Of a DNA stretch of 38,593 nucleotides, positions 56 to 38,337 are shown piece by piece (position 1 is the first letter of the stretch; every line of letters starts with the position of its first letter). Location of the stretch: NCBI GenBank assembly GCA_016935125.1, contig JAFGRM010000043.1:1-38593 (forward strand). Reading direction: 5' to 3'. The notes below the pieces were generated by a model. The model had not been told where the DNA came from, did not search any database, and saw only the letters and a list, made by a program, of their open reading frames with translations. Source of the stretch: Candidatus Woesearchaeota archaeon (GTDB taxonomy: Archaea; Nanobdellota; Nanobdellia; Woesearchaeales; DSVV01). Both the position numbers and the translations under genes were made by a program.

Positions 56-406
56 ATGTTAGTTTATTTTACAACAAAAGATTTATATACTAAATATGTT
101 AAAAGATTTTGCATGCATGATTATGAAGGCTTTATCAAACATGGCAACAGGATGCTGATCTACACGTATTCTACCAAGCACCTGCTGAAAAAAGATAAAG
201 TAAGGTTCTATTATGCCCTAAAAGGCAGGGATGGCAAATCTGGAGTCGTAAAGAGCATGAAGATTGTCCACCTTGGAAGGACTGTCCTCATGATCCACGA
301 ACGTTATGATGAAGATATCCAGCAGTTCATGAAAGTATGGAACCTGCCTTACACAAGAAGAAAAGCGGTTGTAGACGAAGAGTTAATGAGAGGTGGTCCT
401 CCATGA
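56..406 (+). CDS. hypothetical protein, 116 aa
   Basis: Open frame whose stop overlaps the next gene start in an ATGA arrangement at 403-406, consistent with translational coupling. Confidence 0.6.
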   Translation: MLVYFTTKDLYTKYVKRFCMHDYEGFIKHGNRMLIYTYSTKHLLKKDKVRFYYALKGRDGKSGVVKSMKIVHLGRTVLMIHERYDEDIQQFMKVWNLPYTRRKAVVDEELMRGGPP

Positions 407-5381: not shown

Positions 5382-6245
5382 ATGGGGCTTTTTGGATTTG
5401 GAAAGAAAAAGAATGAAGAGCAAGCATCTCAGCCAGACAGCAATGTGAATATGCTTGACCCACCTCCAGCGCCTGCAGAGATGGGTACGTTTGGAAAGAT
5501 AGAAGATACAAGATCAGGCATGGATCCTATATTTTCTGAGGTGGAGCAGACAGCAGTAGACAAGCAGTTCCAGACCCCTGAAGAGTTGCCGACAGACTTC
5601 CTGCCAGATGAGATCAGTGTAGAAAATCCAGAGCCTATGCCTGAATCGGATGAGATAAGTAGCAATCAAGCAGCACCACAAGAGCCAGGTCCAGAGCTAG
5701 CTGCACTCCAGAAGGAACCTGCTGCCACACAGCTTGGAGAGCTTAATCAAGAACCATCATCAGCAGGAGCAATTGAAATTGAAGGCAAAGAAGGTACAGC
5801 TGGCGTAGCACAGGCACCAAGAGACATAGAAGCAGTCCAGCTATTCAAAGGGAAAGACCATGGTTACGATGAGCCGGCCATGCCCGGCGAGCTGCCAAAA
5901 TATGAGCCTACCACATCAAACTTTGACATCAAGAACGAGATTATGTCTGAGATCAGGTCAGCAAAAGACTTTGAGAACCATATCCAGAACATCAAGGCAA
6001 CAGTTGACCAGGACAGCTTCAACAGATTCAAAAGAACACCTTATCTAAACTATAACCAGTTCAAGGAGATGGTCAATGTAATCAACTCCATCAGTTCAGA
6101 ATCACAGGTCGGACAGGACGCAATTCTCAGGATCATCGAGATAAATAAGGACATGGATTCCTATTACAGGTCATGGCGTGAAGACCTTGATTATTTTGAG
6201 AAAAAGATAATTAAGCTGGATGGAGTAATATACAAAGGTGATTAG
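5382..6245 (+). CDS. hypothetical protein, acidic/Pro-rich N-terminus with helical C-terminal domain
   Basis: 287-aa ORF preceded by GGTGGT; next gene starts 2 nt after its stop. Confidence 0.7.
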   Translation: MGLFGFGKKKNEEQASQPDSNVNMLDPPPAPAEMGTFGKIEDTRSGMDPIFSEVEQTAVDKQFQTPEELPTDFLPDEISVENPEPMPESDEISSNQAAPQEPGPELAALQKEPAATQLGELNQEPSSAGAIEIEGKEGTAGVAQAPRDIEAVQLFKGKDHGYDEPAMPGELPKYEPTTSNFDIKNEIMSEIRSAKDFENHIQNIKATVDQDSFNRFKRTPYLNYNQFKEMVNVINSISSESQVGQDAILRIIEINKDMDSYYRSWREDLDYFEKKIIKLDGVIYKGD

Positions 6246-6247
6246 AA

Positions 6248-6487
6248 ATGGTCGATTCAGATGTTCATGAACAAGCGGTTTTTGTCAAGATAGATGAATA
6301 CAAAGAAGTTATTGATTTGTTTGAGAAGCTAAGGACTAAACTTGCCCAGGCAAAAGACACACTCAATAAGATTGTTGAACTCAAAAAAGAGGAGCAGACC
6401 GAGATTGACCTATGGAACAACAGCATAAAAGAGATAGAGAAGAAGCTGCATTTCATAGACCAAACACTAGGCGAAACAGAGAATTAA
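6248..6487 (+). CDS. small coiled-coil hypothetical protein, 79 aa
   Basis: Tight operonic spacing; strongly helical, charged sequence. Confidence 0.7.
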   Translation: MVDSDVHEQAVFVKIDEYKEVIDLFEKLRTKLAQAKDTLNKIVELKKEEQTEIDLWNNSIKEIEKKLHFIDQTLGETEN

Positions 6488-6501
6488 TGAGGTTTTAGTA
6501 T

Positions 6502-6903
6502 ATGACAAGCCAAAATGAGATCTTTTACGTGCGAATAAGCGACAGCAAAAAAGTCAGGAAGACTCTGCTTGAGGCATCAAGAGAAATTATACTTATCCTG
6601 CAGAGATATGAGATGTTCAAGCGGCTGCGAGAAGCAAAACTAGAACTCATGGAAGACCTGTCAAACCAGTTCAAGGAAATCCATGAGATCACATCAAAGA
6701 TGAAGATAGAGATGCCTAAAGTCAAGTTTGCACATCAGGCTAAAACAAAGAATATCAAACCTGCTCAGGAAAAAGAGGTAATTCCTAAGGCAAAAGCTCC
6801 CAGGGCAAAGAAGCATAATCTTGAGAAGGAAGAGGAAGCTGAACTAAAAAGGCTTGAAGTTGCAATAAATGAAATAGAGAAAAGGCTTGAGAAGATGAAC
6901 TGA
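6502..6903 (+). CDS. hypothetical helical protein, 133 aa
   Basis: Tight operonic spacing; helical Lys/Glu-rich protein. Confidence 0.7.
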   Translation: MTSQNEIFYVRISDSKKVRKTLLEASREIILILQRYEMFKRLREAKLELMEDLSNQFKEIHEITSKMKIEMPKVKFAHQAKTKNIKPAQEKEVIPKAKAPRAKKHNLEKEEEAELKRLEVAINEIEKRLEKMN

Positions 6904-12223: not shown

Positions 12224-14824
12224 CTATATCGTAAGGACAAAGTTTGTATTGGTATTGTTGCTCTTGTCCTTGCACGCAAAATAGAGCTCGCTTGGCCCTG
12301 AACTAACATTTACTTCAGCAGAGCATGGGTAAGAGCCAAGCGGGTAGCCGACATTATAGATCACGTCTGACTCAGCTGCTGAACAGTTGATCTCAAGCAT
12401 GTCATCGTATACAACATTAGAAAATGCATATCTGCATGAGCTGAATGGCTCATTAACAAGTATCCCGAACGTGTTTAGATTATCCCTAAGGATCATAGGA
12501 GGCTTTATGATATCAAGGATCTCTGGTGGGATATTGTCAGATGCTGGCGCATCCATATTGAATATGAGGATAGACTCCTCATCATTAGAGAAGCCTGAAC
12601 TGTCATAACACTTGACAAAGACCAGGAGATAGTCCATGGCAGTAAAGTTTACCGAAGGAAGCCTCATCGTCACATCGTATTCTGTCTTATAGCTGTAATC
12701 ATTCAACATTATCTCAGGCAGGGATATTGGCAGTGATGTCCCGCCTGTGCCATATCCAGGAGGATACATGCTGAGCTTGCATCTTGTCGGCTTGCTTGTC
12801 TCGATGACAAAACTTATCGGCTGATATGGATGGAGCCTGGGCGTGATGTTGTATTCTGTCCCTCCGTAATAATCATTGTAGCCTTCTATATAATCATAAC
12901 CGCTCTGGATCTCTTTGAGGTATACCTCTGGCAGGTCAAAAGCGCTGATGCTATCCAGAGTGCATTCCCCATCTGAATAGACGCAATTCCTCCCAAGGCT
13001 CCTGCATTTGTATTCTGTACATGGATGGACAAGCGATGCACTGCAAAGACTGCACATGTTCACTGTCGGTGCAAGCCATTGGTCGCATATCGCATCGCCT
13101 GAGCCTGCGCCATGAGGGATATTTGCTGAGCTCTCTATGTTGGTATTTGTGATGTCAGCATGCAGGACAAACTCATCTCCTCTTTTTACATAACCATCAT
13201 CCCAGTATGCCCAAAACTCTGGAGTGATGTCCTGGTTATAATAGCCTAGTGTTGTCAGCTCATCAGCTATATTCCTATAATTGCCGCAATCACCGCTTCT
13301 CTGGCAATAGAGCAACGCAGAATGCCCCCAACTTACCGGGAAATTATTGCCATAAAAGTCCTTGGTCATGCTTGCGACATTGCATATATCTTTAGCATCA
13401 TCCTCCCAGAACTTGAATCCAGGAGAGACTGTAGGATGGCATTTCATCTCTGTCCAGATATAGTCTGCCCATGAGCAGTCGCGGACAAGGGTATCCTCGC
13501 AGTCACTCTGTGTGGTCTGTTCATTGCAGTCATACCACCGGTTCAGCCTGCAGCCTGACACCCTGTAGTATTTCCCGAACTCTTCAGCTGAATCCTCTGC
13601 ACACAGCTCTTCACGATAATCACGGCACTCTTCAACGTATTCTACCCCATTTATGCAAGAATGGAGATAATGCCTTGAGCCCACATAATCCTTGCCGTTG
13701 CCGACCATGCTCTCATAACTGCACCACGAATCTCCGTGCTTTCTCGAGCCGCCTGTGTAATTGTTGTCTACATAATCATAGACATTGCTGCAGTCCAGGT
13801 TTATGCAATGCGCATTCAGGCATCTCAGGTCATCCTTATGGAACACACCGCCCATTGCCAGGCAATCGTTTTCAGTTGTCAGCTGGCAGTTATAGTTGTT
13901 CTCACAGCAGCCTTCAACAGTCGGCTCGATGTATTTTTCGCATGTGCAGGCTGCAGAATCAACGTATCTGTTCGGGCTTTTGCACAAGGACTTCTCAACA
14001 TTCTTGAAGCACAGCCCGTCTTCTCTGATACAGCAGCCGCCCTGCTTGTACCTGATAACCTCTTTTCCGACTGTATCTACACCCTTGATCGCAAAATTGA
14101 AAACAAGCATCCTCCTGAAATCAGGAAGGTAGTGCTTCAGCTCGTAGATCGTGTCAGGGTAGGGCTTATGCTTCTCGACCATTATGCAGCCGCCCTGCTC
14201 AAGCATGAAATCCTCCTTGTTGAAGTAGCCATCTGAGGCTTCAGCATTGACAATGTCAATGGACGCGGCATAGAGCCTTCCGAGAGGGATTGCGATGCTC
14301 GCTGAAAAATCCTTGACATTCTTGACAGATTCTCCGCGTTCAAGCCCTATAGGGTAACTTAGCCTTATAAACACAGAATTGTTGCCAACTGTAAAATCCG
14401 CCTCTGGCTCGCCCTTTGTCACCTTAAAGCCCTGCTCCTGGTATGGGTCCAGGTTGGTACACAGCTTTATCCTCTCTTCAAATTCCTCTTCTAGCTCAGC
14501 CTCGATCTCATCCCTTGACAGCATGTTGTTGCGGTAACCAAAACCACTCTCATAATAGGCTAATATGTTCAGCCGGGTATTATCATAAGAAACATTTGAG
14601 TCTGGCTTAAGGCTTCCGCCTTTCTCTGCTATCTCAAAGATAAGCGGCTCTGCAACCTGGGTTATGCATGTCTGCACAAAATCTGTTATTGTGTCCGCAC
14701 CTTCAACATCAGAAGGGATATCAGTGTCCTGCGTGCTTGTGAACAGGTAATAGCCAAATGCAACTGCAGCAATAAGGGCTATCCCTAATACGATAAACAA
14801 AGTAATCTGACCCCTTTTTGACAT
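12224..14824 (-). CDS. large Cys-rich secreted/membrane-anchored protein with class III-like N-terminus
   Basis: 866 aa; N-terminus MSKRGQITLFIVLGIALIAAVAFGYYLF followed by Cys-rich modules and C-terminal Ig-like segments. Confidence 0.85.
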   Translation of the reverse strand: MSKRGQITLFIVLGIALIAAVAFGYYLFTSTQDTDIPSDVEGADTITDFVQTCITQVAEPLIFEIAEKGGSLKPDSNVSYDNTRLNILAYYESGFGYRNNMLSRDEIEAELEEEFEERIKLCTNLDPYQEQGFKVTKGEPEADFTVGNNSVFIRLSYPIGLERGESVKNVKDFSASIAIPLGRLYAASIDIVNAEASDGYFNKEDFMLEQGGCIMVEKHKPYPDTIYELKHYLPDFRRMLVFNFAIKGVDTVGKEVIRYKQGGCCIREDGLCFKNVEKSLCKSPNRYVDSAACTCEKYIEPTVEGCCENNYNCQLTTENDCLAMGGVFHKDDLRCLNAHCINLDCSNVYDYVDNNYTGGSRKHGDSWCSYESMVGNGKDYVGSRHYLHSCINGVEYVEECRDYREELCAEDSAEEFGKYYRVSGCRLNRWYDCNEQTTQSDCEDTLVRDCSWADYIWTEMKCHPTVSPGFKFWEDDAKDICNVASMTKDFYGNNFPVSWGHSALLYCQRSGDCGNYRNIADELTTLGYYNQDITPEFWAYWDDGYVKRGDEFVLHADITNTNIESSANIPHGAGSGDAICDQWLAPTVNMCSLCSASLVHPCTEYKCRSLGRNCVYSDGECTLDSISAFDLPEVYLKEIQSGYDYIEGYNDYYGGTEYNITPRLHPYQPISFVIETSKPTRCKLSMYPPGYGTGGTSLPISLPEIMLNDYSYKTEYDVTMRLPSVNFTAMDYLLVFVKCYDSSGFSNDEESILIFNMDAPASDNIPPEILDIIKPPMILRDNLNTFGILVNEPFSSCRYAFSNVVYDDMLEINCSAAESDVIYNVGYPLGSYPCSAEVNVSSGPSELYFACKDKSNNTNTNFVLTI

Positions 14825-14961: not shown

Positions 14962-14999
14962 AGCATGACCGATAATTTTAAGCATGACCGATAATTTTA
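14962..14999. repeat. 19-nt tandem duplication (agcatgaccgataatttta x2)
   Basis: 14962-14980 and 14981-14999 are identical. Confidence 0.9.
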
Positions 15000-15016
15000 A
15001 ATATCTGTTGTCACAA
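14984..15016 (+). promoter_or_regulatory. promoter/leader copy A: atgaccgataattttaaatatctgttgtcacaa with TATA-like TTTTAAATA
   Basis: 33-nt perfect duplicate of 15529-15561, located upstream of paralogous lipoprotein genes. Confidence 0.55.
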
Positions 15017-15112
15017 GAAGATAGATATGAAGATAGGTATAAAAAAGAAAATGACAGATATGAGTATGAAAAAAATATGATGGATATGGATATGAAAAAG
15101 AAAATGGTGGAT

Positions 15113-15418
15113 ATGAAAAATACAAAGAGAACATATGTTCTGGCAACGCTTGCCATTCTTACTGCTGTTCTTATCATCTCTACTGCATGTGATGACGAAA
15201 AACAAAGGATAGACCAAAATAATAACGATCAGCTCGAGACAAGTGCCAGGATAGAGATGGAAGAAAGCCTCAGGAAGGATAATTACACATACCAATCATG
15301 CATCGACTATGGTGGTGTGTGGGATGAAGCCACATTACGTTGCGAATTTGAGACAAATACAACCACTGCAAGTAATGAAATGTTTTATGGCGGCGGTGAT
15401 GGATATGGTGACAATTAG
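15113..15418 (+). CDS. small putative lipoprotein
   Basis: MKNTKRTYVLATLAILTAVLIISTAC: signal peptide with lipobox-like C. The ORF opens at 14984, but that part overlaps a promoter-like element. Confidence 0.7.
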   Translation: MKNTKRTYVLATLAILTAVLIISTACDDEKQRIDQNNNDQLETSARIEMEESLRKDNYTYQSCIDYGGVWDEATLRCEFETNTTTASNEMFYGGGDGYGDN

Positions 15419-15528
15419 TGATTCCTCTTGAGAAGAAGGAGAAGGTAGTTCAGGTGAAGGTGGTGTCAGCTGTTAGGCTCTCAGCCAAATTACTCTTGCC
15501 CGAACTCAAGATTTCAAAAGTTTCCTAA

Positions 15529-15561
15529 ATGACCGATAATTTTAAATATCTGTTGTCACAA
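15529..15561 (+). promoter_or_regulatory. promoter/leader copy B identical to 14984-15016
   Basis: Perfect 33-nt repeat with TTTTAAATA. Confidence 0.55.
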
Positions 15562-15639
15562 AAGATAGATATCAAAACAGATATAAAAGGTATGAAAAAA
15601 AATAAGGTGGATATGAATATGAAAAAGAACATGGCAGAT

Positions 15640-16506
15640 ATGAAAAATACAAAGAGAACATATGTTCTGGCAATGGCTGTTATGGTTGCCGCCCTTCTAA
15701 TAATAACTACAGGATGCGATGAAGAGAAGGAAAAGATAGATGCAGACAACAACAAGCAGCTGAATACAGATTCTCAAAACGAACTATTCAGTGCCCTTAG
15801 GGAGGCTGAAACTACTGCATTATCACAGGAATCATGCCTTGATATGGGGGGGGTATGGAATCCAAACGCTACCCCTCACTGCGATGTCCAGTCAAATATA
15901 GAAACTGGCTTGAGCTGCTCTTATGTGGAATCTCCACAGCCAGAATACTGCTACAGGGCATACTCTGGCGAAGCTATCCAGTGCTTTTACAAGGGAAAAA
16001 CTGATTCAGACAACCTCTGCAGAAATGGTTACATATGCGGCCCAGGCAAGATGATGAGCATGAAGATCGCAAAAACAGAGGATGAAGAAGAATACACTTA
16101 CCCTGGCGGATCTCAATCCAACACATTTGACCCGGAGTATTATCAGGTCTGCCAGGCACAGATGGGCGGCTGCCAGGGGCTCTCACATGCTGAATGCGAA
16201 GAGTCGATAGAATGCTTCCTAGAGATCATACAAGAAGGCGACCAGAAGTATTATACATGCAAGCCTGAGACAATAAACGACGGCTGCCACCACATAAGCA
16301 AGGCAGCATGCGAAGAGTCGACAGAATGCTTCCTGGAGATGATAGAGCTAGATGGAAAAGCCTCTTTCACATGCAAGCCTGAGACAATAAACGACGGCTG
16401 CCACCATATGGGCAAGGCAGCATGCGAAGCCTCAGAAAACTGCTCTATCGAAAGGACAGTTAACACAGAAAAAGGCGAAATCAAGGAAAAGTGCGTGCCT
16501 AACTAA
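15640..16506 (+). CDS. putative lipoprotein with three C-terminal Cys-containing repeats
   Basis: MKNTKRTYVLAMAVMVAALLIITTGC lipobox; 38-aa repeats GCxxxSxAxCEESxECFLExI...TCKPETIND. Confidence 0.8.
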   Translation: MKNTKRTYVLAMAVMVAALLIITTGCDEEKEKIDADNNKQLNTDSQNELFSALREAETTALSQESCLDMGGVWNPNATPHCDVQSNIETGLSCSYVESPQPEYCYRAYSGEAIQCFYKGKTDSDNLCRNGYICGPGKMMSMKIAKTEDEEEYTYPGGSQSNTFDPEYYQVCQAQMGGCQGLSHAECEESIECFLEIIQEGDQKYYTCKPETINDGCHHISKAACEESTECFLEMIELDGKASFTCKPETINDGCHHMGKAACEASENCSIERTVNTEKGEIKEKCVPN

Positions 16507-16549: not shown

Positions 16550-17779
16550 TCAACTAAGACCATAGTAATCGTCAAGCACTAGAACATCTATATCTTCTGT
16601 TTCCTTTGCTATATACAGCTTTCCTTCGCCTATCTCAGTTATCTTCTCAGCAAGCTCTGCGCCCTTGTTGTCCAGGTTTATACCTATGAGCGATATTGTT
16701 ATCCCTGCTGCCTTTGCGACTGATGCTGCCTTAAGGGTGTCCTCCTGTGGATTCTCACCGACTGTTGGCAGCGCATCTGTAAGAAGTATCAGGTGTTTTG
16801 CTGAATCATCATCTGGGAATAGCTCGATGGAGCTCTTGATCGTCGCTGCGATATCTGTCTCGTTTGATGCACGTATCCTGGATATCTCAGAGAGAAGCAT
16901 CGGAAAATCAGCTGACGGCATGATCCTTGTCCTGACATCCTTGCCGAACACGATAAGCCCTACCTTGTCCTTTTCCTCTATCGCCTTAAACGCAAGAGCG
17001 ACACCTGCTCTCTTGCAGTTCTCGATCTTTTTCCCTTTCATAGAGCCAGATGAATCAACTGCATATATAACATTGACCCTGCCTTTTGACATATGGGTAT
17101 AAGACCTAAAGTCTATCGCTGATGCCTTGCCGTGCCCCCTGCGAAGCGCTGTCTTAATAGTCATCCTCACTGCAAAATCCCTGTATGAATCATCTTTCTT
17201 GTATGGCCTTATCTCCTGCTTTTCTCCATACGAGTTCTTCTTCTTATGCAACTTCTCTCCAATAAGGCCTTTTGGGGCAAGCCTGTTAAGCTCTTCAGAA
17301 TAAAGCACGATCGATGCCAGCTCATAGCCCTTCTCTGTCAAAGACATGCTCTTGTCGATGAGCTTCCTCTCTTTCATGCCCTCTATGCGCTCTGCAATCC
17401 TCTTCTTCAGCTCGCGCTGGAACTCAGGGATGCTAACATTCTTTTCAATATAATCAGGGTCATAACCAAAAAGCGCCCGGATGATCTTTTCGCCGTATAT
17501 ATGCTTTGCCATAGAATAATCCTTGACAAGCTTTTCAAACATCATGTCTGGCGTAAAAGAGCTGAACCCTGAATTGATCGCATCGTTTAATAGCTTTCCG
17601 TCATCTATAGTCTGCTTGTCGTTTTCCAGAACTGAATTCATAAGCTTGTCCTGCTCAGATTGCTTGTCAAGCTTGCCTGTAAGCTCTTCAGCTGAAGAGA
17701 GCTTCTCCTTTTTTAGGTCTAGCTTTTCTTGGGATAGATCCCTGCTACCGGCAACCACCCTGCTCCTCATCATTGACAA
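16550..17779 (-). CDS. VWA-domain protein (MoxR-associated / ChlD-like)
   Basis: MIDAS motif DSSGSMKGKK; LILLTDALPTVG; adjacent to an AAA+ MoxR-like gene with a 35-nt overlap (true start is probably slightly internal). Confidence 0.88.
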   Translation of the reverse strand: MSMMRSRVVAGSRDLSQEKLDLKKEKLSSAEELTGKLDKQSEQDKLMNSVLENDKQTIDDGKLLNDAINSGFSSFTPDMMFEKLVKDYSMAKHIYGEKIIRALFGYDPDYIEKNVSIPEFQRELKKRIAERIEGMKERKLIDKSMSLTEKGYELASIVLYSEELNRLAPKGLIGEKLHKKKNSYGEKQEIRPYKKDDSYRDFAVRMTIKTALRRGHGKASAIDFRSYTHMSKGRVNVIYAVDSSGSMKGKKIENCKRAGVALAFKAIEEKDKVGLIVFGKDVRTRIMPSADFPMLLSEISRIRASNETDIAATIKSSIELFPDDDSAKHLILLTDALPTVGENPQEDTLKAASVAKAAGITISLIGINLDNKGAELAEKITEIGEGKLYIAKETEDIDVLVLDDYYGLS

Positions 17780-18845
17780 TATCAGGATACTTGTCCTGGA
17801 TGAATCTGTCGAATTCCTGCTCGATCAGCTCTCTTGGCTCCTTTAGGTACTTTACTGATGGCTTGAGCTTGATCCTGTGGGCAAGGACTGAGACAACGAC
17901 ATCTTTTAGGTCAGGATAGCTGACAACATCGTTTCCGTTGAGATATGCGTTTGCCTGGGCACGCTCATAAAGCCCGATTGTCGCCCTGACAGAAGGTACC
18001 TTCTCAAGGCTCTCCTCTTCCCGAAGCTCGCGGATGAACCCTACAATTATCTCTTTTATCAGCTCAGGCGTCTCGACCATGTTGCATCCCTTGCTGACCA
18101 TGACATCCTTTTCGATCTGGTTTGTCTCAGGGTAGGTCATATAGACCACATCAAACCTGTCAAGGAGCACGTCTGACAGCCTCTCTGTATTTATGTCGAC
18201 AGGGTTCATAGTGCCGACAAAGATGAAATTTGTCTCGATATCTACATCATAGCTGCCAATGGTCGCCCTGCCCTCTTCAAGCACCTGCAGGAGCGCGTTC
18301 TGAAGCTTTTCAGGGCAGCGGTTCAGCTCGTCGAAAAAGAGCACAGAGTTATTGGCCTTGAATATCTTACCTGGGGTAAATGCCTCTATGCTGAGCGGCC
18401 CGTATTCCATCGCCTTTATAGGGTCTATGTCACCTATCAGGTCTTCTGCAGATAGGTCAGGACTTCCCTGTATCCTTACAAAACGCTGCTCGCCCTTTAT
18501 TATTAGCTGTGATTTTGTCTTCCCTGACCTGCATGCAGGACAGACAGGGTTGGCAGGGTCGCATTTGAACTCGCAGTCGTTAACTGTTATCTCAGGAAGA
18601 AGCTTTGCAATGTTTTTTGCAATGGTCGTCTTGCCGATTCCTGGCTGGCCGAATATGACAATATGCCTGTTCATAAGAAGCGCGGACTTGATCTGCTTTT
18701 TTGCAGTCTCCTGGCCCAGGATGTCAGTGAATATGTCATCCCTGCTCCTGAATATCTCTGCCAATGAATTCCTTATTTTCGGTTTGATGTTTTTGTTGTC
18801 CATTTTCATATACCTTTTATCAAAAATATCAGAGGAGTTTTTCAA
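17745..18845 (-). CDS. MoxR/ChlI-like AAA+ ATPase
   Basis: Walker A FGQPGIGKTTIAKN, Walker B SVLFFDELNR, sensor 1 FIFVGTMNPVD, DRFD motif; CEFKCDPANPVCPAC insertion. Confidence 0.92.
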   Translation of the reverse strand: MKNSSDIFDKRYMKMDNKNIKPKIRNSLAEIFRSRDDIFTDILGQETAKKQIKSALLMNRHIVIFGQPGIGKTTIAKNIAKLLPEITVNDCEFKCDPANPVCPACRSGKTKSQLIIKGEQRFVRIQGSPDLSAEDLIGDIDPIKAMEYGPLSIEAFTPGKIFKANNSVLFFDELNRCPEKLQNALLQVLEEGRATIGSYDVDIETNFIFVGTMNPVDINTERLSDVLLDRFDVVYMTYPETNQIEKDVMVSKGCNMVETPELIKEIIVGFIRELREEESLEKVPSVRATIGLYERAQANAYLNGNDVVSYPDLKDVVVSVLAHRIKLKPSVKYLKEPRELIEQEFDRFIQDKYPDIVNDEEQGGCR

Positions 18846-26701: not shown

Positions 26702-27136
26702 TCACAGTCTCTTTGCCTTTTCCTTTACTCTTATCCCTGAAATCATAGTGTTCGGATACTGGCCGTCTGCGTCTTTTTCAAGATACTTTACCATGTCCCA
26801 TACTGTAGCAAGGGCAGCAGCAACACCCACCAGCGCCTCCATCTCAACACCTGTCTTTGCTGTCGCAGCAACCCTGAGCTTTGCATAAACCTCATCTGAG
26901 CCCACCTTGAACTCACAAGAAACATCCTCAACAGCTATCTGGTGGCAGTGCGGGATAAGCTCAGGTGTCTTTTTTACTGCAAGGATCGCCGCAATCTCTG
27001 CTGCAGCCAGCGGATCGCCTTTCTTAACATCGCCTGACAAGATAAGGTCTACAGTATCCCTGCCAAGTGTGATCTTCCCTTCTGCAACAGCTGTCCTCAG
27101 GACAGGCTTTTTCCCTGATACATCAGCCATACCCAT
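26702..27136 (-). CDS. moaC: cyclic pyranopterin monophosphate synthase MoaC
   Basis: ELIPHCHQIAVEDVSCEF, AKTGVEMEALVGVAAALATVWDMVKYLEKD. Start MGMADVSGKK at 27136; the ORF opens at 27199. Confidence 0.93.
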   Translation of the reverse strand: MGMADVSGKKPVLRTAVAEGKITLGRDTVDLILSGDVKKGDPLAAAEIAAILAVKKTPELIPHCHQIAVEDVSCEFKVGSDEVYAKLRVAATAKTGVEMEALVGVAAALATVWDMVKYLEKDADGQYPNTMISGIRVKEKAKRL

Positions 27137-28175
27137 ATTTATCCCTCGCCTTGACCGCTTTTGCCAGCGCACAAGCTCCCTTAAACTCAAATACCTCATC
27201 CTTTCTCATAAGGCATGGCATAATCCTGCCATGGCAGTCTATCCTGACCTTATTGCATCTGCTGCAGAAATCTGGACTCGGCCTCACCACCTCTACAAAT
27301 ATGCCGTCCATGTAATATCTCATCCTTCCCTGCATAGCCCTTTTTCTAACAGACTCTGATCTCTGCCTAAGCTCATCCTCAATATCCATTAGAGGATAAA
27401 AATAGCTCTCAAAGATACCCATGTCACCTAACCTCACAAGCTCTATCAGCTGGAGGTTGATGCCTTTAGCTGCGCAAAAATCTATCATCGGCCAGATCTC
27501 GCCATCATTTATGCCTCTTAACACGACCATGTTGAGCTTTACCTGAAGTCCTGCACGGACTGATTCAAGCATGCCTTTTTCAAGGCGTACTGCATTTTTC
27601 GGAAGCTGGCTGCTAAGCGTAAGCGTATCACAGCCTATGTTGACGTGATTTAGCCCTGCATCTGCAAGCTCGCATGCGCAGGAATGAAGCAATGTGCCGT
27701 TTGTAGTCAGGCCTATGTCTTCATAACCGAGCATGTCCGCATACCTGACTATCTCTGCAATATCTTTCCTTAGAAGGGGCTCGCCGCCAGTAAGCTTAAG
27801 CGAGCTGATGCCTGCCTTTTTTGATTCTGAAAGGATCTCAAACACCTTTTCTGTGCTGACCTCATGCATGTTTCCGGCATCTCCTGTAGTATCCTGTGTA
27901 TTCCCTTCCTTATGGCAATAGAAGCAGTCAAGGTTGCACCTTTTAGTCAGGGAAAGCCTTAGATGGTCCACATGCCTTCCTACTGCATCGATCATCTTTG
28001 CATCTGTCATCGTTGCATCTGTCATCGTTGCATCTGTTATCGTTGCATCTGTTATCGTTGCATCTGTCATCGTTGCATCTGTCATCGTTGCATCTGTTAT
28101 CGTTGCATCTGTTATCGTTGCATCTGTTATCGTTGCATCTGTTATCGTTGCATCTGTCATCGTTGCATTGATCAT
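27123..28175 (-). CDS. moaA: GTP 3',8-cyclase MoaA with N-terminal (M/I)TDAT repeat
   Basis: LSLTKRCNLDCFYC, LTGGEPLLRKDI, C-terminal FCSRCNKVRIDCHGRIMPC. ATGA start/stop overlap with the upstream gene at 28172-28175. Confidence 0.93.
   Translation of the reverse strand: MINATMTDATITDATITDATITDATITDATMTDATMTDATITDATITDATMTDATMTDAKMIDAVGRHVDHLRLSLTKRCNLDCFYCHKEGNTQDTTGDAGNMHEVSTEKVFEILSESKKAGISSLKLTGGEPLLRKDIAEIVRYADMLGYEDIGLTTNGTLLHSCACELADAGLNHVNIGCDTLTLSSQLPKNAVRLEKGMLESVRAGLQVKLNMVVLRGINDGEIWPMIDFCAAKGINLQLIELVRLGDMGIFESYFYPLMDIEDELRQRSESVRKRAMQGRMRYYMDGIFVEVVRPSPDFCSRCNKVRIDCHGRIMPCLMRKDEVFEFKGACALAKAVKARDKYGYG
28000..28164. repeat. 11 x 15-bp tandem repeat (gcatctgtYatcgtt on +), flanked by degenerate units
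   Basis: Units differ only at one Y position, in the order C C T T C C T T T T C. Confidence 0.95.
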
Positions 28176-32449: not shown

Positions 32450-33103
32450 TCATTTTTTCTTAAAAGACACCCTGCTGTCAAGCGACTTGCTTATCACAAT
32501 ATCCTCAACACTGCTGCTGAATACAAGAGGCATGTCACACCCCTCTGGATTCATAAAGGACATCTGCTTGTCTTCAGTGTAATGCTTGCATACTGCATTC
32601 TCGCAGTTGATATACTCAAACGGTTTTGCAACCCTGTATATCCAGCTTATCTTCTGGGCACTGCAAAGGCAGATGCAGGGCTCATCCATGGGGCAATGGA
32701 TGACATCGCGCGTTATCTGAAGCTTGATAGTCCTTGGAAACATGGGTTCTCTGCATTCGCCTTCAAGGGTGCGGACGCCGGGGTTAAAGCCTACAACCAC
32801 ATAATCGCTGCTCAGCTGAAGATTTAGTTCTGTAGACTCACCTGTCTTCAGGCTTTCAACAGAAGAGTAAAATTCCATGAAGCCTTTCATCACACCACCC
32901 TCTTTTTCTCGGTCTATGAAGACATCAAAAAGCCCGCTTATAAAGGCGCTTATCGCAAGCAGGGCCATGACCGCAAGAACAAGCCCTATTACAGTATTAA
33001 GGCTAAGGCTCATGTCCCCTCTTTTCTCTCTGCTGCTTTTCTCTATGCTACACATCATAAAATACCTTGCTATACCTTTGTACCTTGCTTCACCTTGCTT
33101 CAA
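32450..33103 (-). CDS. pilin-like single-TM protein with Cys-rich ectodomain
   Basis: KRGDMSLSLNTVIGLVLAVMALLAISAFISGLF; later CPMDEPCICLC. True start is probably internal. Confidence 0.75.
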   Translation of the reverse strand: MKQGEARYKGIARYFMMCSIEKSSREKRGDMSLSLNTVIGLVLAVMALLAISAFISGLFDVFIDREKEGGVMKGFMEFYSSVESLKTGESTELNLQLSSDYVVVGFNPGVRTLEGECREPMFPRTIKLQITRDVIHCPMDEPCICLCSAQKISWIYRVAKPFEYINCENAVCKHYTEDKQMSFMNPEGCDMPLVFSSSVEDIVISKSLDSRVSFKKK

Positions 33104-33200
33104 ATCATAGGCAATTACAAATTACAGGTTATATAGTTGGCAATAACATTTAACCAGTTGTATCATTGGCAATAGCAGTTTATATTACAGGCAACAACAG

Positions 33201-33500
33201 TCAATCCTCGCTGTCATCACCCTTGCCATAATATTTTTCAGGATCGTTGTCGTCGCTGTCACATACGATCGTCTTTCCATCTACTGTTATTGTAGCCTTT
33301 TTGTAGCCGTCATTGTCAACATCTGTGTCATCAGCTGTTGCCATGCACTTGTTCTTGATAGTAATGTCATTGTTTATCAGCCCTATGCTTCCCATGAACT
33401 TTGAAAAGACCCCACCTGATATGAACATCAATATCAGGAGTGTTGCTAAGGCAAGGACAGCCATGATTATAAACCAGTTTACCTCAGCTTTTTTCCCCAT
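33201..33500 (-). CDS. pilin-like single-TM protein with MopE/TSP3-like Asp-rich motif
   Basis: MGKKAEVNWFIIMAVLALATLLILMF; DDTDVDNDGY and CDSDDNDPEKYY. Confidence 0.75.
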   Translation of the reverse strand: MGKKAEVNWFIIMAVLALATLLILMFISGGVFSKFMGSIGLINNDITIKNKCMATADDTDVDNDGYKKATITVDGKTIVCDSDDNDPEKYYGKGDDSED

Positions 33501-33530
33501 CTTTTACCTCTGTTGATCTTACTCCAACCA

Positions 33531-33590
33531 ATCTTAGTGTAATTTATCTTAGTGTAATTTATCTTGCTGTGATTGATCTTATCGTAACTA
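33531..33590. repeat. 4 x 15-nt tandem repeat (atcttagtgtaattt)
   Basis: 33531-33545, 33546-33560 (identical), then two diverged units reaching into the end of the neighbouring gene. Confidence 0.8.
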
Positions 33591-34158
33591 CTTTGCTTTT
33601 TCCCTTTTTGCAGCAGACAACCCCTTCATTATCACCGCAGTCAGCAAAAAGCTGGTATTGCGCATCACATCTCTTTGTTGTGCATTCCCCTCCTGCAAGT
33701 GAGCATGCAGTGACACAGCATACAGTACTACTGCTTGTGCTTCCTGTACTCTCATCATTGCTGCATCTGTAGTCCATAATACGGCCGTCGTAGTTTTCAC
33801 ATGCAGTCTTATCGATGCAGTCTCCACGGCCTGTTGTCTCACAGTTGTTCAGCTCGCCTGAGAACAACCCGAACCTGCCTGAAAAGACTATAAGAAGCAC
33901 GATCAGGACTGCAAGCGCAATAACAGCCATGACAATAGTATTCATGCCCATCTCTATGCCTCTCTTATCATTGAACAACCTCTTATCACTCAACCCATCA
34001 AATAAGTTAGTGAACAAGCCATTGGACAACCTGCGATTGTTATTCTTCTTCATGGTTCTCATGGTTTCTATGGTTTTCATGGTTTTCATTGTTCTAGTGG
34101 TTCTTATGGTCTCTATGGTTCTCATCTTTTTCATATCCATCCTTGATGACACATCCAT
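33559..34158 (-). CDS. pilin-like single-TM protein with two Cys...CC modules
   Basis: KRGIEMGMNTIVMAVIALAVLIVLLIVFSGRFGLF followed by two C-x6/7-C-x4/5-C-x9/11-C-x7/14-CC units. The N-terminal 75 aa may be untranslated or an extension. Confidence 0.75.
   Translation of the reverse strand: MDVSSRMDMKKMRTIETIRTTRTMKTMKTIETMRTMKKNNNRRLSNGLFTNLFDGLSDKRLFNDKRGIEMGMNTIVMAVIALAVLIVLLIVFSGRFGLFSGELNNCETTGRGDCIDKTACENYDGRIMDYRCSNDESTGSTSSSTVCCVTACSLAGGECTTKRCDAQYQLFADCGDNEGVVCCKKGKSKVVTIRSITAR
34052..34123. repeat. 8 x 9-nt tandem repeat (atggttctc-like)
   Basis: Units atggttctc/atggtttct/atggttttc/atggttttc/attgttcta/gtggttctt/atggtctct/atggttctc. Confidence 0.85.
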
Positions 34159-34178
34159 CCTGATGACACCTCACTCTC

Positions 34179-35012
34179 TTATGGGACATCTGCCTTAGCA
34201 GCATCAGTGCTGCAAGGCCTATTAAGGAATACCTTCCTAAGATTGAAGCTCACTGGCTCCTTGCAATCACCCCATATCCATCTATGGCTAGGATTAAACC
34301 AGCCAACCTGCTCTTTACAGTATTCCTCATTTAAAACCTTTACCCTGTTATCAGAAGTTATGCCTTCAACCCGCAGCAGCTGTTTTGTCTCAACCCCTGA
34401 ATTATCCTCGTTTGGAAGGTTCTCGAGAGAATACTCAGTCATGTCGTCTTTTGGCACTGTCAGCTTGAGCACGTTTATGCCCATCGGCGGCTTGTCGCTG
34501 ATCAACAGATATATAGGTGTGCCTGAACTGACAATGCTCTTGAAGATATATGACTTCCCTTCAGAGGTTGTCATCTCCTGTATGCATTCTGCATGGTTTA
34601 TATCTGCTATTATATGCATCTGCTCTATAGTCACGCTCGCTTTTGTATATTTGGCATCATCCCTCAACGCCTTGTTGAAACCATCAAAGCCCTCAATATA
34701 TTCATCAATCCTCTGCTGCTCTGCTCTTGAAAGGTCCCCACCTGGCGATGCCTCTCTTACCTTATCACATGCCTTGTCAAAAGCCTGTATCTTAGAAAGC
34801 GGCTTGCAGGCAGCCTCTGCAACCTGAAGCCCGAGCCTCCCAAGCATGCCTCCTACTCCAAGCGACCACATTATAACCAGGATCAACGCGAGTGCAAGGC
34901 TTACAAGTACCCAGTTCGGGCCATCTGCCCTCTTGTTCCACCTCAAGCCACACCTACTATTCAGGGCCTTGTTCTTGTTTTGGCCAGGCCAAATCAGGGA
35001 TATCATGACCAC
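34179..35012 (-). CDS. pilin-like single-TM protein, 277 aa
   Basis: NKRADGPNWVLVSLALALILVIMWSLGVGG N-terminus; start overlaps the stop of the 48-aa ORF. Confidence 0.75.
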   Translation of the reverse strand: MVMISLIWPGQNKNKALNSRCGLRWNKRADGPNWVLVSLALALILVIMWSLGVGGMLGRLGLQVAEAACKPLSKIQAFDKACDKVREASPGGDLSRAEQQRIDEYIEGFDGFNKALRDDAKYTKASVTIEQMHIIADINHAECIQEMTTSEGKSYIFKSIVSSGTPIYLLISDKPPMGINVLKLTVPKDDMTEYSLENLPNEDNSGVETKQLLRVEGITSDNRVKVLNEEYCKEQVGWFNPSHRWIWGDCKEPVSFNLRKVFLNRPCSTDAAKADVP

Positions 35013-35149
35013 CCCCTGAGAAAATCAAGGAACCCATTCTGGAATTTTCCAGTATTTGCTATTATGACCATAATTATCAAGAGTATGAGAAGCGTTATTA
35101 TAAGCCCGACAAGCCACATAGGCATATCCCCTTTCTTGTTTTTTATCAT
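35003..35149 (-). CDS. 48-aa pilin-like peptide MIKNKKGDMPMWLVGLIITLLILLIIMVIIANTGKFQNGFLDFLRGWS
   Basis: Hand-translated; not in the ORF track. KKGD plus a hydrophobic helix; stop overlaps the next gene start (TCATGATA). Confidence 0.7.
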   Translation of the reverse strand: MIKNKKGDMPMWLVGLIITLLILLIIMVIIANTGKFQNGFLDFLRGWS

Positions 35150-35231
35150 TCTACATCATTCTTTTTTCATTGGTTTATATTATTTGCTCTTTGCATAGCT
35201 GCAGTACTATATATCATCTATATCATCTATA

Positions 35232-36188
35232 TCATCTGTTTCCCTGCACTCCTGGCATATATGTACAGTTAAGGTTTTTCAGGCTGTGTTCGTTGTATGG
35301 GAAAAGCAGTATGCATGCCTGCCAGTCAGCAGCCTTTTCGCTTCCTGACAGATAACCTCCAACAGATCCTGTTGTTGCACCTGCAATCGCCTGCCCTATT
35401 ATTATTAATGCTGTTGCCTTTGAAAAGAATGGCTCAGGCATAAGTATTGCAGTGATAACACCAGAGGCAGTCCCTGCAACAGTGCCCCATTTCCCGCCTG
35501 CAAATGATGCCCATACCTTCTGCATATAACCTTTTTTTGTGTAGAGGAACATGATGCCGTAATCCTGGCTCGTATCGATCGCATCCTCTGCAGAGAGCTG
35601 CGGACCTAAAAACAGCTCAGGGGTTGGGTTAAAACACTTAAGGTATTCTGAATATTTCCTGTTATCATCCGGCTTTGGAATCTCATTCTGCTCAAGATAA
35701 CTGTAGAACCCTTCCAGCTTTGGAACACCCTTGAAGCTGATGTGATGAGTTAGTATACAATAGCGCTCCTCGCCTGACTCTCCTGAGAAGAGATTCAGCT
35801 TTCCCTCATGCATCATGTCCCATGAGGTATACATCAGGTTTGCAAGCTCACGCTTGACTGATTCAGGATTGCCGCTAAGCTCCCTGTAGGATACAGGGCA
35901 TGGCACATCTGAGGTCTGCCTGTCGCTTCCTGTATCAAGAAGCGAGCCAGGATTCATAAAGAGCCTGAGAAAAGAGTCATCTCCCTTGACCTTTACTGCA
36001 GAACTGATCCTTATCGCTTCCTTACACATCTTTGCCTGCTTTGTATCATCATGCACCTTCATAAGCTTGTATGAAAATCCCATGATGCTAAGCAGTACTG
36101 CAAGGCCTATTATAAGCGCGATTATGGTCTGGTTTGTCATCGCCCTTTTCTTCTGTAATATCTTCCTATTTATTCCTTTTTTGGACAT
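35232..36188 (-). CDS. pilin-like membrane protein, 318 aa, with additional Gly-rich hydrophobic C-terminal segment
   Basis: KKRAMTNQTIIALIIGLAVLLSIMGF; homologous by eye to 36248-37099. Confidence 0.78.
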   Translation of the reverse strand: MSKKGINRKILQKKRAMTNQTIIALIIGLAVLLSIMGFSYKLMKVHDDTKQAKMCKEAIRISSAVKVKGDDSFLRLFMNPGSLLDTGSDRQTSDVPCPVSYRELSGNPESVKRELANLMYTSWDMMHEGKLNLFSGESGEERYCILTHHISFKGVPKLEGFYSYLEQNEIPKPDDNRKYSEYLKCFNPTPELFLGPQLSAEDAIDTSQDYGIMFLYTKKGYMQKVWASFAGGKWGTVAGTASGVITAILMPEPFFSKATALIIIGQAIAGATTGSVGGYLSGSEKAADWQACILLFPYNEHSLKNLNCTYMPGVQGNR

Positions 36189-36247
36189 TTTTGGATATTT
36201 TATATACTTTAATTAATCTAATTATATAATCTAATATTAAGCTTGCT

Positions 36248-37099
36248 TTAGTTTACAAGCACTGAGCATACCTCTGGTACGTTTTCAGGCCGCGCAAAAA
36301 AGATGAAATAGGTATCTTCCATGCGCATAAAATTATCATCATTGTTTATTATTGCCTTAAACATATTCCCGAACTGCTCGTTTGCTTTTGAGTATTTCAT
36401 GGCCTTGAAAAACACCACATACTCATCATTGGTCGAAAGCTGAGTGTTATTATCAAACCCATGTATATAGATGCTCTTGTCTGCTGAATAATACAATTGG
36501 GTCAGGGCACCTGCAAACTGTGCTGGATAATCCATAAGCATATACTTTGAATAGTTGACATCATAGCTGTTTTTAGTGTAGTTGTGCGTGTTTAGGTATT
36601 CTAAAAACCCGTCTGAACTGCCCAGATCTATGCCCTTTGCACCTGCATCCACATCAAAAGATATATGGCTGCAGATCAGGCATGTAGCCCTGTTTTTCAT
36701 GAGCACATCCTGATCAAATACATCGACCATCCCTTCACCCATCTTAAACCAGCAGTCAGCCATCTCATTAGCTACAAGCTTGTAGAACTGCTCTGGCTCT
36801 TTTGTTAGCAGGGTATTGAAACTAATGTATGTGTCATAGTTGCCCTTGGCATTCCTGATCTTGGCATCTTTCTCAGTCACCTTGATATTATGTCTTGGAC
36901 AATTAAGCGTCACAATCTTAAGCCCAAACACATCCTTGCTCTGCGCAAGAACAGACAGCCTGCATTGCTCATCAGAAACTGTTTTTTCAAATATCTTAAG
37001 CGCACCTGAAAAAAAGCTAACAAGCACCAACAAGACAATCACTGTCAGGATTACCTTATTCAGCGTGCTTGTTCCTGCCTGACCTCTTTTTGCCCTCAT
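36248..37099 (-). CDS. pilin-like single-TM protein, 283 aa
   Basis: MRAKRGQAGTSTLNKVILTVIVLLVLVSFFSG; LVANEMADCWFKMGEGMVDVF...CLICSHISFD. Confidence 0.78.
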   Translation of the reverse strand: MRAKRGQAGTSTLNKVILTVIVLLVLVSFFSGALKIFEKTVSDEQCRLSVLAQSKDVFGLKIVTLNCPRHNIKVTEKDAKIRNAKGNYDTYISFNTLLTKEPEQFYKLVANEMADCWFKMGEGMVDVFDQDVLMKNRATCLICSHISFDVDAGAKGIDLGSSDGFLEYLNTHNYTKNSYDVNYSKYMLMDYPAQFAGALTQLYYSADKSIYIHGFDNNTQLSTNDEYVVFFKAMKYSKANEQFGNMFKAIINNDDNFMRMEDTYFIFFARPENVPEVCSVLVN

Positions 37100-37279
37100 T
37101 TACGCACCAAAACCATATACCTAATTTTTGATAATCAAATAATGTCTTCAGCAATCCTTATGCCCTGAGCCATGCTATGCCAACCATGATATCCTAGCAT
37201 CATATCCTAACTGTGTTATTTCATCATCATGCCTTAACTATACCATTCAACCATACCATTCAACAATGTTAGCTCATCA

Positions 37280-37423
37280 TCATATCCTAAGCAGTTTTGT
37301 CATCCCATCAGATACTGTTGCAAAAAAGAATATGCAAAATATGATGATTATCACAATTATTATTATCTGCCTCAATGTCAGGCCTGCTTTCCTTGAGCAT
37401 CTCAACATCCTCATAGATATCAT
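37280..37423 (-). CDS. 47-aa pilin-like peptide MISMRMLRCSRKAGLTLRQIIIIVIIIIFCIFFFATVSDGMTKLLRI
   Basis: Hand-translated; not in the ORF track. RKAG plus a hydrophobic helix, on the same strand as its neighbours. Confidence 0.6.
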   Translation of the reverse strand: MISMRMLRCSRKAGLTLRQIIIIVIIIIFCIFFFATVSDGMTKLLRI

Positions 37424-37553
37424 GCAATAAGACTCTGTTTGTTTCTGTATTTAAAGTTTTAGGTAAGGATCATTAATGGCCAAACATGGATTAGATAAGG
37501 GTCAGATAAGGATTGACTAAAGATTAACTAAGGATTAACTAAAGCTCAAGCGA

Positions 37554-37648
37554 CAAGCAGCCAATATGCAGCCAAGGATCAGATAGAAATCAAACAGCAA
37601 GCAGCCAATATGCAGCCAAGGATCAGATAGAAATCAAGCGACAAGCAG
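37554..37648. repeat. 44-nt tandem repeat, about 2.2 copies (caagcagccaatatgcagccaaggatcagatagaaatcaa...)
   Basis: Repeat starts at 37554, 37598 and 37642. Confidence 0.9.
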
Positions 37649-37677
37649 CCAAAAATCAAACAGGAATCAGGCAATCA

Positions 37678-37956
37678 TCAATCCTTGATACAGCATATTG
37701 TGTCCAGCTTTTCCCCGGTTTTTGGATCAAAGCATGGCCCTATAGGGGTTCCACCCATCTGTATACACTCAGGATTTGATTCCACACAGTCACCGCCTTT
37801 ATCTATACAGTCATTTATCCCCTTATTGAATATGCCCATCCTGCTTGAGAAGATGACTATCAGAACAACAAGAACTATGAGTGCAATGGCTGCAACAACT
37901 ATTGTTGACATCGACAGCCCTTCTGCCTTCCGGGTTTTGTCAAACAATCCTAACAT
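37678..37956 (-). CDS. small pilin-like protein with one Cys...CC module
   Basis: RKAEGLSMSTIVVAAIALIVLVVLIVIFSSRMGIFNKGINDC...ICCIKD. Confidence 0.8.
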   Translation of the reverse strand: MLGLFDKTRKAEGLSMSTIVVAAIALIVLVVLIVIFSSRMGIFNKGINDCIDKGGDCVESNPECIQMGGTPIGPCFDPKTGEKLDTICCIKD

Positions 37957-38070
37957 CTTCTTAATACCTTTTTTATCTTATTTTTTTATCTTTTTTATCT
38001 TATAGATCAACAAACATATCAACATATAAAAAATAAAAATATACTAATTCGTAGACCAATACAACAAGTG

Positions 38071-38337
38071 TTATATGTTCAGCTCGACACAACATACCAT
38101 GTATGGATCCTGCTTGTTGTCGCTTCCATAGCATACTGCTGAAGGATGCATAGTGTATCCATCATCGCACACCCTGTCCATGCACACTCCGTTCTGCTTT
38201 GTGCAGTCGTTTGAGCTCTTTGTGAATATGCCCATCCTTGCCATAAATATAACTGAAACAATAACAAGAACAAGAAGTGCGATGGCTGCAACAATAATTA
38301 CGTTAAGTGAAAGGTTCTGCGCTCTTTTTCTAAACAT
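38071..38337 (-). CDS. small pilin-like protein with one Cys...CC module
   Basis: MFRKRAQNLSLNVIIVAAIALLVLVIVSVIFMARMGIFTKSSNDC...VCCVELNI. Confidence 0.8.
   Translation of the reverse strand: MFRKRAQNLSLNVIIVAAIALLVLVIVSVIFMARMGIFTKSSNDCTKQNGVCMDRVCDDGYTMHPSAVCYGSDNKQDPYMVCCVELNI

Follow-up and report, generated by a model that had tools for sequence, protein, structure and literature searches.

The window, that is, the whole stretch of DNA analyzed (38,593 nucleotides from a Candidatus Woesearchaeota archaeon), contained at 32450-38337 an array of ten consecutive minus-strand open reading frames, all of which were recovered with the N-termini quoted in the preliminary description. An 866-aa protein at 12224-14824 was previously reported to share their signature. 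The features are as follows:

P1, 38071..38337, minus strand: family F, 88 aa, RKRA-QNLSLNVIIVAAIALL, 6 Cys (F profile, E=9.7e-29)
P2, 37678..37956, minus strand: family F, 92 aa, TRKA-EGLSMSTIVVAAIALI, 6 Cys (E=2.6e-26)
P3, 37280..37423, minus strand: single-helix protein, 47 aa, SRKA-GLTLRQIIIIVIIII, weak motif with R before the core
P4, 36248..37099, minus strand: family H, first of the usual pair, 283 aa, AKRG-QAGTSTLNKVILTVIVLL, 6 Cys (E=7.2e-56)
P5, 35232..36188, minus strand: family H, second of the pair, 318 aa, KKRA-MTNQTIIALIIGLAVLL, with invariant cysteines C55, C97, C144 and C308
P6, 35003..35149, minus strand: single-helix protein, F/I-like, 48 aa, NKKG-DMPMWLVGLIITLL
P7, 34179..35012, minus strand: 277 aa, WNKRA-DGPNWVLVSLALALIL, 7 Cys; translation may in fact begin within the ORF
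P8, 33559..34158, minus strand: family F, 199 aa, DKRG-IEMGMNTIVMAVIAL, 12 Cys (E=1.7e-25); translation probably begins within the ORF
P9, 33201..33500, minus strand: family F-like, 99 aa, GKKA-EVNWFIIMAVLALATLL (E=8.5e-16)
P10, 32450..33103, minus strand: family K, 217 aa, EKRG-DMSLSLNTVIGLVLAV, 9 Cys (E=7.1e-48)
A-like protein, 12224..14824, minus strand: 866 aa, SKRG-QITLFIVLGIAL

Each of the ten array proteins showed a single hydrophobic segment, located at the N-terminus after a K/R-K/R-G/A-type step, which was clean ([KR][KR][GA]) in eight of them; P3 (47 aa) and P4 (283 aa) were the weakest cases of the motif, since a further basic residue separates the step from the hydrophobic core. 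Cysteines ranged from 2 to 12 per protein, with the exception of the 48-aa P6. No significant matches to Pfam or NCBIfam were obtained for the ten proteins, sub-threshold matches such as PrgI or DUF948 being dismissed as TM-helix matches, and the 866-aa A-like protein had no match in Pfam. In relatives, a small prepilin-like gene was common at the place of P3, and that of P7 was usually occupied by a prepilin-like gene; family K proteins reached 570-850 aa in some relatives, with a VanY domain in one.

The previously described array of about ten genes is real and conserved as a block, but it constitutes only the middle part of a module of approximately 17-20 genes. This module follows the order [A]-giant-B-C-D-E-F(F)-H-H-F-K-L-M-N-O, with which the order in the window (FFcHHFcFFK) agrees, and was detected in 81 distinct loci, almost all of which belong to Woesearchaeota records. 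Among these, CDE was present in 73, BCDE in 55 and LM(N) in 27, and H occurred as a pair in 34 of the 56 loci containing it. In the genome under study the block was split over three contigs, with giant-B-C-D-E on C58, the window array on C73 and L-M-N-O on C56. Protein C, usually in single copy, was found in 52 of 61 relatives and, in a phylum-wide sample of 284 genomes, in 223; about one fifth of the sampled genomes yielded no protein C. The giant proteins (approximately 1000-2300 aa) contained Ig-like domains, and in several relatives proteins with the N-terminus of the 866-aa A-like protein were encoded directly upstream of the giant gene.

Chance or artefact as the source of the array was rejected based on the conserved order, the enriched step and the fixed offsets described below, as was a viral origin, with no relative of C among viral contigs. 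A first single-linkage clustering that merged C, H and the giants was also discarded because it had joined them through over-extended ORFs and low-complexity repeats. Apparent giant-C (L108) and A-giant (L058 and L098) fusions proved to be runs of N translated through. Since such masking may also affect the giants in genome_contigs loci, the adjacency of giants was assessed chiefly from unmasked loci (L030, L035, L040, L041, L139, L141-L143, L145 and L146).

Archaeal class III (PibD/FlaK-type) prepilins carry K/R-G/A preceding a hydrophobic helix. A KK[GAS] step directly before the N-terminal hydrophobic core was found in 530 of 790 members of the array families across all loci (67%), versus 12 of 98 non-array N-anchored proteins (12%) in 403 kb of the own genome (Fisher p = 3e-26), so that the class III-like signature noted earlier stands far above background. 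Over 1.12 Mb of this genome, the step was present in 32 of 300 N-anchored proteins outside the array, several of them pilin-like and situated beside the genome's T4P ATPases or an archaellin. The signature was maintained at a family-specific fixed offset among members sharing 20-40% identity (80 of 88 in E, 77 of 89 in D and 65 of 93 in C), and a class III signal was predicted from sequence in more than 90% of members in families B, C, D, E, F, H and N. Families L and M did not show the signature (31-34%), indicating that not every subunit of the block is prepilin-like. As to the concern that the core often starts some residues beyond the step, the archaellin encoded in the same genome (VNKKA-EMGVGTLIVFIAM; PF01917, E=1.8e-11) resolves it, its step-to-core spacing being identical to that of KKG-QGLSLNVIIIAA.

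Two array families were modelled with AlphaFold2. The models of C (pLDDT 92.6, helix 13-57) and of P5 from family H (pLDDT 73.6, of moderate confidence only; helix 9-67) both consisted of a long N-terminal helix (45-59 residues) and a globular domain. No fold match, pilins included, was found for either in the PDB at E<=0.001, a fold search in BFVD gave no match, and the H and C profiles matched no PDB sequences.

The preliminary description had named, as evidence against its proposal, a lack of conservation as a block and a genome lacking prepilin peptidase or ATPase; the block is conserved, and both peptidase and ATPase are present here. The own genome encodes an A24 prepilin peptidase (G000:C78:2494-2877, E=3.9e-14), as do 274 of 284 genomes of the phylum, as well as three T4P-type ATPases accompanied by T2SSF-like platform proteins. 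In agreement with the same description, no T4P motor genes were found within the window, and neither an ATPase nor a platform gene adjoined the array in any of the loci examined. A phylum-wide ATPase scan, with six candidates scored per genome, recognised no T4P-type ATPase in 47 C-positive genomes of the same order, 24 of which are at least 95% complete and 45 of which keep A24. In the scan of the platform family (61 genomes), ten of the 13 ATPase-less C-positive relatives had no T2SSF match and three had a marginal one.

In common with archaeal type IV pili and archaella (PilB/FlaI, PilC/FlaJ/TadC, PibD/FlaK and pilins), the block combines the K/R-G/A step with a single N-terminal helix, pilin-like genes in a row, a genomic A24 peptidase and the spacing of the own archaellin. 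It differs from them in carrying hydrolase domains and in arranging roughly a dozen large, mutually unrelated families of ectodomains in a fixed order. The array might nonetheless represent minor and major pilins of a type IV pilus or pseudopilus, extruded by a T4P motor encoded elsewhere in the genome, as suggested by the signature and A24 peptidase, the three ATPases with their platforms in the own genome, the long N-terminal helices of the models and the frequent separation of archaeal pilin genes from their motor (PMC4858521; a 2016 census of archaeal type IV pili in which DPANN and Woesearchaeota are not mentioned). However, the 47 array-bearing genomes without a T4P-type ATPase, the missing or marginal T2SSF in the 13 relatives, the absence of motor genes beside every array examined and the lack of any match to a solved pilin render this explanation unlikely, and the type-IV-pilus-related filament proposed earlier is not supported in that form. 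The block resembles a pilus system, yet often occurs without a recognisable T4P ATPase, and is not a canonical type IV pilus.

Alternatively, the N-termini might be ordinary uncleaved anchors with merely positively charged starts, holding surface enzymes or binding proteins for nutrient capture or envelope upkeep. The lack of the step in L and M, the basic residue between step and core in P3 and P4, and the fact that cleavage of the array proteins is predicted rather than observed are compatible with such anchors. Their probability is nevertheless low, given the excess of the step over the genome's other N-anchored proteins, its fixed family-specific distance with archaellin-like spacing, and the retention of A24 in all but two of the 47 motor-less genomes.

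The terminal protein O carried interchangeable peptidoglycan hydrolase domains (M23, SLT, Amidase_2, M15/VanY and NlpC/P60). Among 19 O proteins of other genomes, 14 had such a domain, and in the other five no hydrolase domain was found. The O protein of the own genome, encoded on a different contig from the window array, had an NlpC/P60 domain, and its paralogue an SLT domain. The catalytic motifs (HxxxD/HLH, DCSGF/CHIGIY and ES...GLLQIMP) were present in the O domains where inspected. M23 and SLT matches were situated near the array in 8 of 45 and 8 of 60 cases, versus approximately 1.2 and 1.6 expected, respectively, and many M23 and SLT genes were situated away from it. These several unrelated folds are all known from peptidoglycan turnover and, to our knowledge, archaea make no peptidoglycan. 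Envelope biogenesis or S-layer assembly without a partner cell, with the hydrolase folds turned to polymers of the archaeon's own surface, would suit the near phylum-wide single-copy core, suggestive of a basic function, and the Ig-like domains of the giants, but is quite improbable in view of these diverse folds with intact motifs and of the genomes in which C was not found.

Module 98 of Castelle et al. (2021) comprises 51 protein families that Woesearchaeota and Pacearchaeota have in common, most of them without known function, and some array families may be among them; one of the 51, fam00969, has a murein transglycosylase domain in proteins of up to 3,000 aa, for which bacterial-wall binding was suggested (PMC8204110). 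In the part of that text available, the module is defined by co-occurrence only, and the gene block, prepilin-like signals and hydrolase swapping are not described. Antagonism toward bacteria has been proposed for archaeal peptidoglycan hydrolases (PMC12352652) and for ‘vampiristic’ Woesearchaeota (PMC9723730); these hydrolases belong to the same enzyme classes and lineages as O, but were treated as separate enzymes, whereas here they share a single position within a conserved gene block of membrane-anchored proteins. The reduced, episymbiotic Saccharibacteria likewise contact their host by means of pilin-class proteins (PMC12206443), although that system is bacterial and, unlike the array, formed by true type 4 pili.

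We favor, with a probability of roughly 0.5, a motor-independent, prepilin-like contact apparatus that adheres to bacterial partners and locally opens their wall; the host attachment considered previously is plausible as host or partner contact. The ten array genes would encode subunits of this extracellular apparatus, reaching the membrane through their class III N-termini and probably being trimmed by the A24 peptidase. The long N-terminal helices would subsequently associate with one another within the membrane and immediately above it, with the giant Ig-like protein providing reach and adhesion, the Cys-rich ectodomains of F, H, C, D and E forming the body, and the peptidoglycan-cutting domain of O opening the partner's wall locally. 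Such an assembly might work somewhat in the manner of a pseudopilus with a phage-tail-like lysin, for which the canonical T4P ATPase and platform would not be required. Hosts of the DPANN archaea cultivated to date are archaeal rather than bacterial, which counts against a bacterial target (PMC11291902). The L and M families without the signature, the hydrolase-less O proteins, the off-contig location of the own O and the stray M23 and SLT genes are also points against this explanation, as are the moderate H model, the lack of likeness to solved structures and the limited ATPase and platform scans.

Nanoarchaeota such as Woesearchaeota are tiny, abundant and almost entirely uncultured, and we know of no established partners for them. 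As a surface module present in single copy almost throughout the phylum, the block is a strong candidate for being their contact machinery. It is conceivable, though doubtful, that the block encodes an undescribed phylum-wide organelle of Nanoarchaeota, prepilin-like, motor-less and equipped with swappable peptidoglycan hydrolases, which docks on and perforates bacteria. If so, most Woesearchaeota would live on bacteria, as episymbionts or predators, and not on archaea. The hydrolase class of the last gene (M23, SLT, amidase, D-Ala-D-Ala peptidase or NlpC/P60) would predict the type of wall that each species meets. Moreover, the occurrence of class III signals where a pilus motor is missing would broaden the range of structures built from prepilin-like subunits.

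The right end of the window carries ten consecutive minus-strand ORFs (32450-38337), each with a single N-terminal hydrophobic segment, as the preliminary description had reported; a search of the ten proteins against Pfam and NCBIfam gave no significant match. Homologues of the fifth, P5 (35232-36188; family H), were found in 35 of 61 related genomes. From their neighbourhoods and protein clustering, the following recurrent gene order was derived, given here with the distance from a [KR][KR][GAS] step to the hydrophobic core and the members showing it.

Giant gene: first in the order, 5' of B
B: ~175 aa, after the giant; 3 residues (48/75)
C: ~360 aa, xQFNWIFxxxxG, after B; 5 residues (65/93)
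D: ~170 aa, after C; 4 residues (77/89)
E: ~175 aa, after D; 1 residue (80/88)
F: ~90 aa, Cys-rich, one to several copies, after E; 4 residues (113/197)
Small single-helix genes: between F and the H pair
H: ~300 aa, a pair, after the small single-helix genes
Further F-like copies: after the H pair
K: 200-850 aa, after the second F-like set
L, M, N, O: closing genes, after K

The gene order in the window (F F c H H F c F F K) is exactly the middle of this block. The window is the whole of one contig (C73) in a 1.26 Mb genome assembled in 102 contigs (93% complete); a second contig (C58) holds B, C, D and E, with a 2120-aa giant ahead of them and unrelated genes after them, and a third (C56) L, M, N and O, so that the block is split in this genome; some other family members likewise have it split. 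Across relatives the array was indeed conserved as a block: C, D and E were contiguous in 73 of 81 distinct loci and B to E in 55, and as many as 20 array genes could follow one another on one strand. Family C, usually in single copy, was present in 52/61 relatives and in 223/284 genomes across the phylum, and nearly all named records with its relatives were titled Candidatus Woesearchaeota or Nanoarchaeota. The block is almost certainly a conserved module.

Other genes of the window were as follows.

337-5082, plus strand: surface protein of 1581 aa; purple acid phosphatase N-terminal/fn3 and Ig-like domains, with a TM segment at the C-terminus
5382-6903, plus strand: three small genes of 287 aa (starting MGLFGFGKKK), 79 aa and 133 aa
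12224-14824, minus strand: 866-aa KRGQITLF protein
14984-16506, plus strand: a pair of adjacent lipoprotein-like paralogues (144 and 325 aa), similar over the first 60 residues, the second with Cys-rich repeats
16550-18845, minus strand: MoxR-type AAA ATPase adjoining a VWA-domain protein
27123-28175, minus strand: MoaA-like radical SAM protein with tandem TDATI/TDATM units as predicted N-terminus

The 1581-aa protein clustered separately from the array giants. The three small proteins, possible cytoplasmic partners of the array, had no Pfam match above cut-off; in several loci of the same family (L029, L030, L036, L039) their homologues are encoded together, close to the H pair or giant. The KRGQITLF protein is one of a group of proteins 300-870 aa long (also L143:9677-11278 and L075:2702-3895), with several paralogues in the same genome, often encoded immediately upstream of the giant gene, some of these neighbouring giants being N-masked in the records. 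The MoxR-VWA pair may act as chaperones in assembling a complex, and the TDATI/TDATM repeat may be due to an erroneous start call or to expansion of a repeat within the coding sequence.

The step stood directly before the hydrophobic core in 530 of 790 array-family members; a 403-kb sample of this genome had it in 12 of 98 non-array proteins with an N-terminal anchor (p = 3e-26). Over 1.12 Mb it was found outside the array in 32/300 proteins, several of them pilin-like and encoded next to type IV pilus (T4P) ATPases or to a fragment of an archaellin (PF01917). Step-to-core distance was fixed within each family, though families are only 20-40% identical; L and M, also inspected, did not show the step. 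The late start of the core had raised doubts about processing, yet the genome's own archaellin has the same spacing, and the gap is therefore normal. Class III-type signals are likely present on most subunits, and we infer that they are cleaved.

AlphaFold2 modelling of C (45 sequences; pLDDT 92.6, pTM 0.85) gave an N-terminal helix 45 residues long, a domain rich in beta structure and, at the C-terminus, helices with conserved cysteines; P5 (38 H sequences; pLDDT 73.6) gave a 59-residue N-terminal helix, the invariant cysteines of H lying at P5 positions 55, 97, 144 and 308. Foldseek retrieved no match at E<=0.001 for either model in PDB, nor for C in BFVD. Pilins, too, join membrane and ectodomain by a long helix, a likeness that falls short of establishing a pilin fold.

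The proposal of a type-IV-pilus-related structure was supported in the N-terminal signature of the anchors but not as a filament; the genome itself encodes T4P-type ATPases (C30, C78, C2) with T2SSF-like platform partners and a prepilin peptidase (C78). ATPase matches among the 61 relatives formed two classes, T4P-type (mostly E<1e-28, ~480-600 aa) vs. a near-ubiquitous 755-807-aa ATPase. Thirteen C-positive relatives had only the latter or weaker matches and no T4P-type; a T2SSF search, confined to the 61 genomes, gave no match in 10 of these and marginal ones in three (G008, G030, G035). In the phylum sample, where six candidates were scored per genome and for most genomes C stands in for the entire block, 50 same-order genomes lacked a T4P-type ATPase (best E>1e-22; G001 excluded because platform genes are present). 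C was present in 47 of them, 24 of these being at least 95% complete, and 45 of the 47 encoded the A24 prepilin peptidase. The motor is thus not required for keeping the block, whereas the peptidase is almost always kept alongside it. The array resembles type IV pili in its anchors but departs from them in one defining feature, the dedicated ATPase with platform, and a canonical T4P motor is probably not needed. Some genomes across the phylum also have a second A24-like family, weaker and of ~355-390 aa.

O proteins have in common an N-terminal anchor and the conserved stretch GExQ...AE...Y.D.SA...GG....CG.Y, while their C-terminal enzyme domains vary (M23, SLT, Amidase_2, M15/VanY, NlpC/P60). 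Among 19 O proteins of other genomes, tested one by one, 14 had a hydrolase domain at E<=0.001, counting a VanY match in L096 just under the Pfam cut-off; catalytic motifs were present where inspected. The genome's own O carries NlpC/P60 (E=3.4e-12) and a 1048-aa paralogue on C53 (L197:1629-4775) an SLT domain (E=3.1e-21). A further SLT transglycosylase domain lies at G000:C48:1700-2017. Among the relatives, one K protein carries a VanY domain. Of 45 genome-wide M23 matches, 8 lay no more than 15 kb from an array anchor (~1.2 expected), as did 8 of 60 SLT matches (~1.6 expected), both underestimates because the assemblies are fragmented. Archaea do not synthesize peptidoglycan, and that unrelated folds cutting this polymer replace one another in a single slot points to action on the walls of other cells; action on bacterial walls is about as likely as not.

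Castelle et al. 2021 (PMC8204110) described module 98, 51 families common to Woesearchaeota and Pacearchaeota; most have no known function, one includes a murein transglycosylase domain, and the authors suggested attachment to bacterial walls. Murein transglycosylases and pore-forming toxins led Vigneron et al. 2022 (PMC9723730) to propose predatory Woesearchaeota, and archaeal peptidoglycan hydrolases, with homologues prominent in Nanoarchaeota, can kill bacteria (PMC12352652). Makarova et al. 2016 (PMC4858521) mention neither DPANN nor Woesearchaeota. Individual parts are already on record: hydrolases, and a module of families that co-occur. No account of this gene block was found in the open-access journal literature searched, and none of the sequence libraries used contained a known relative of the window array proteins or of B to E. 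Taken as a whole, and allowing for partial correctness, the best explanation (probability roughly 0.52) is a conserved module, with class III-type signals on most subunits and independent of a canonical T4P motor, that would act on bacterial walls, resembling a pilus-class assembly in its anchors and a wall-piercing device in its enzymes.
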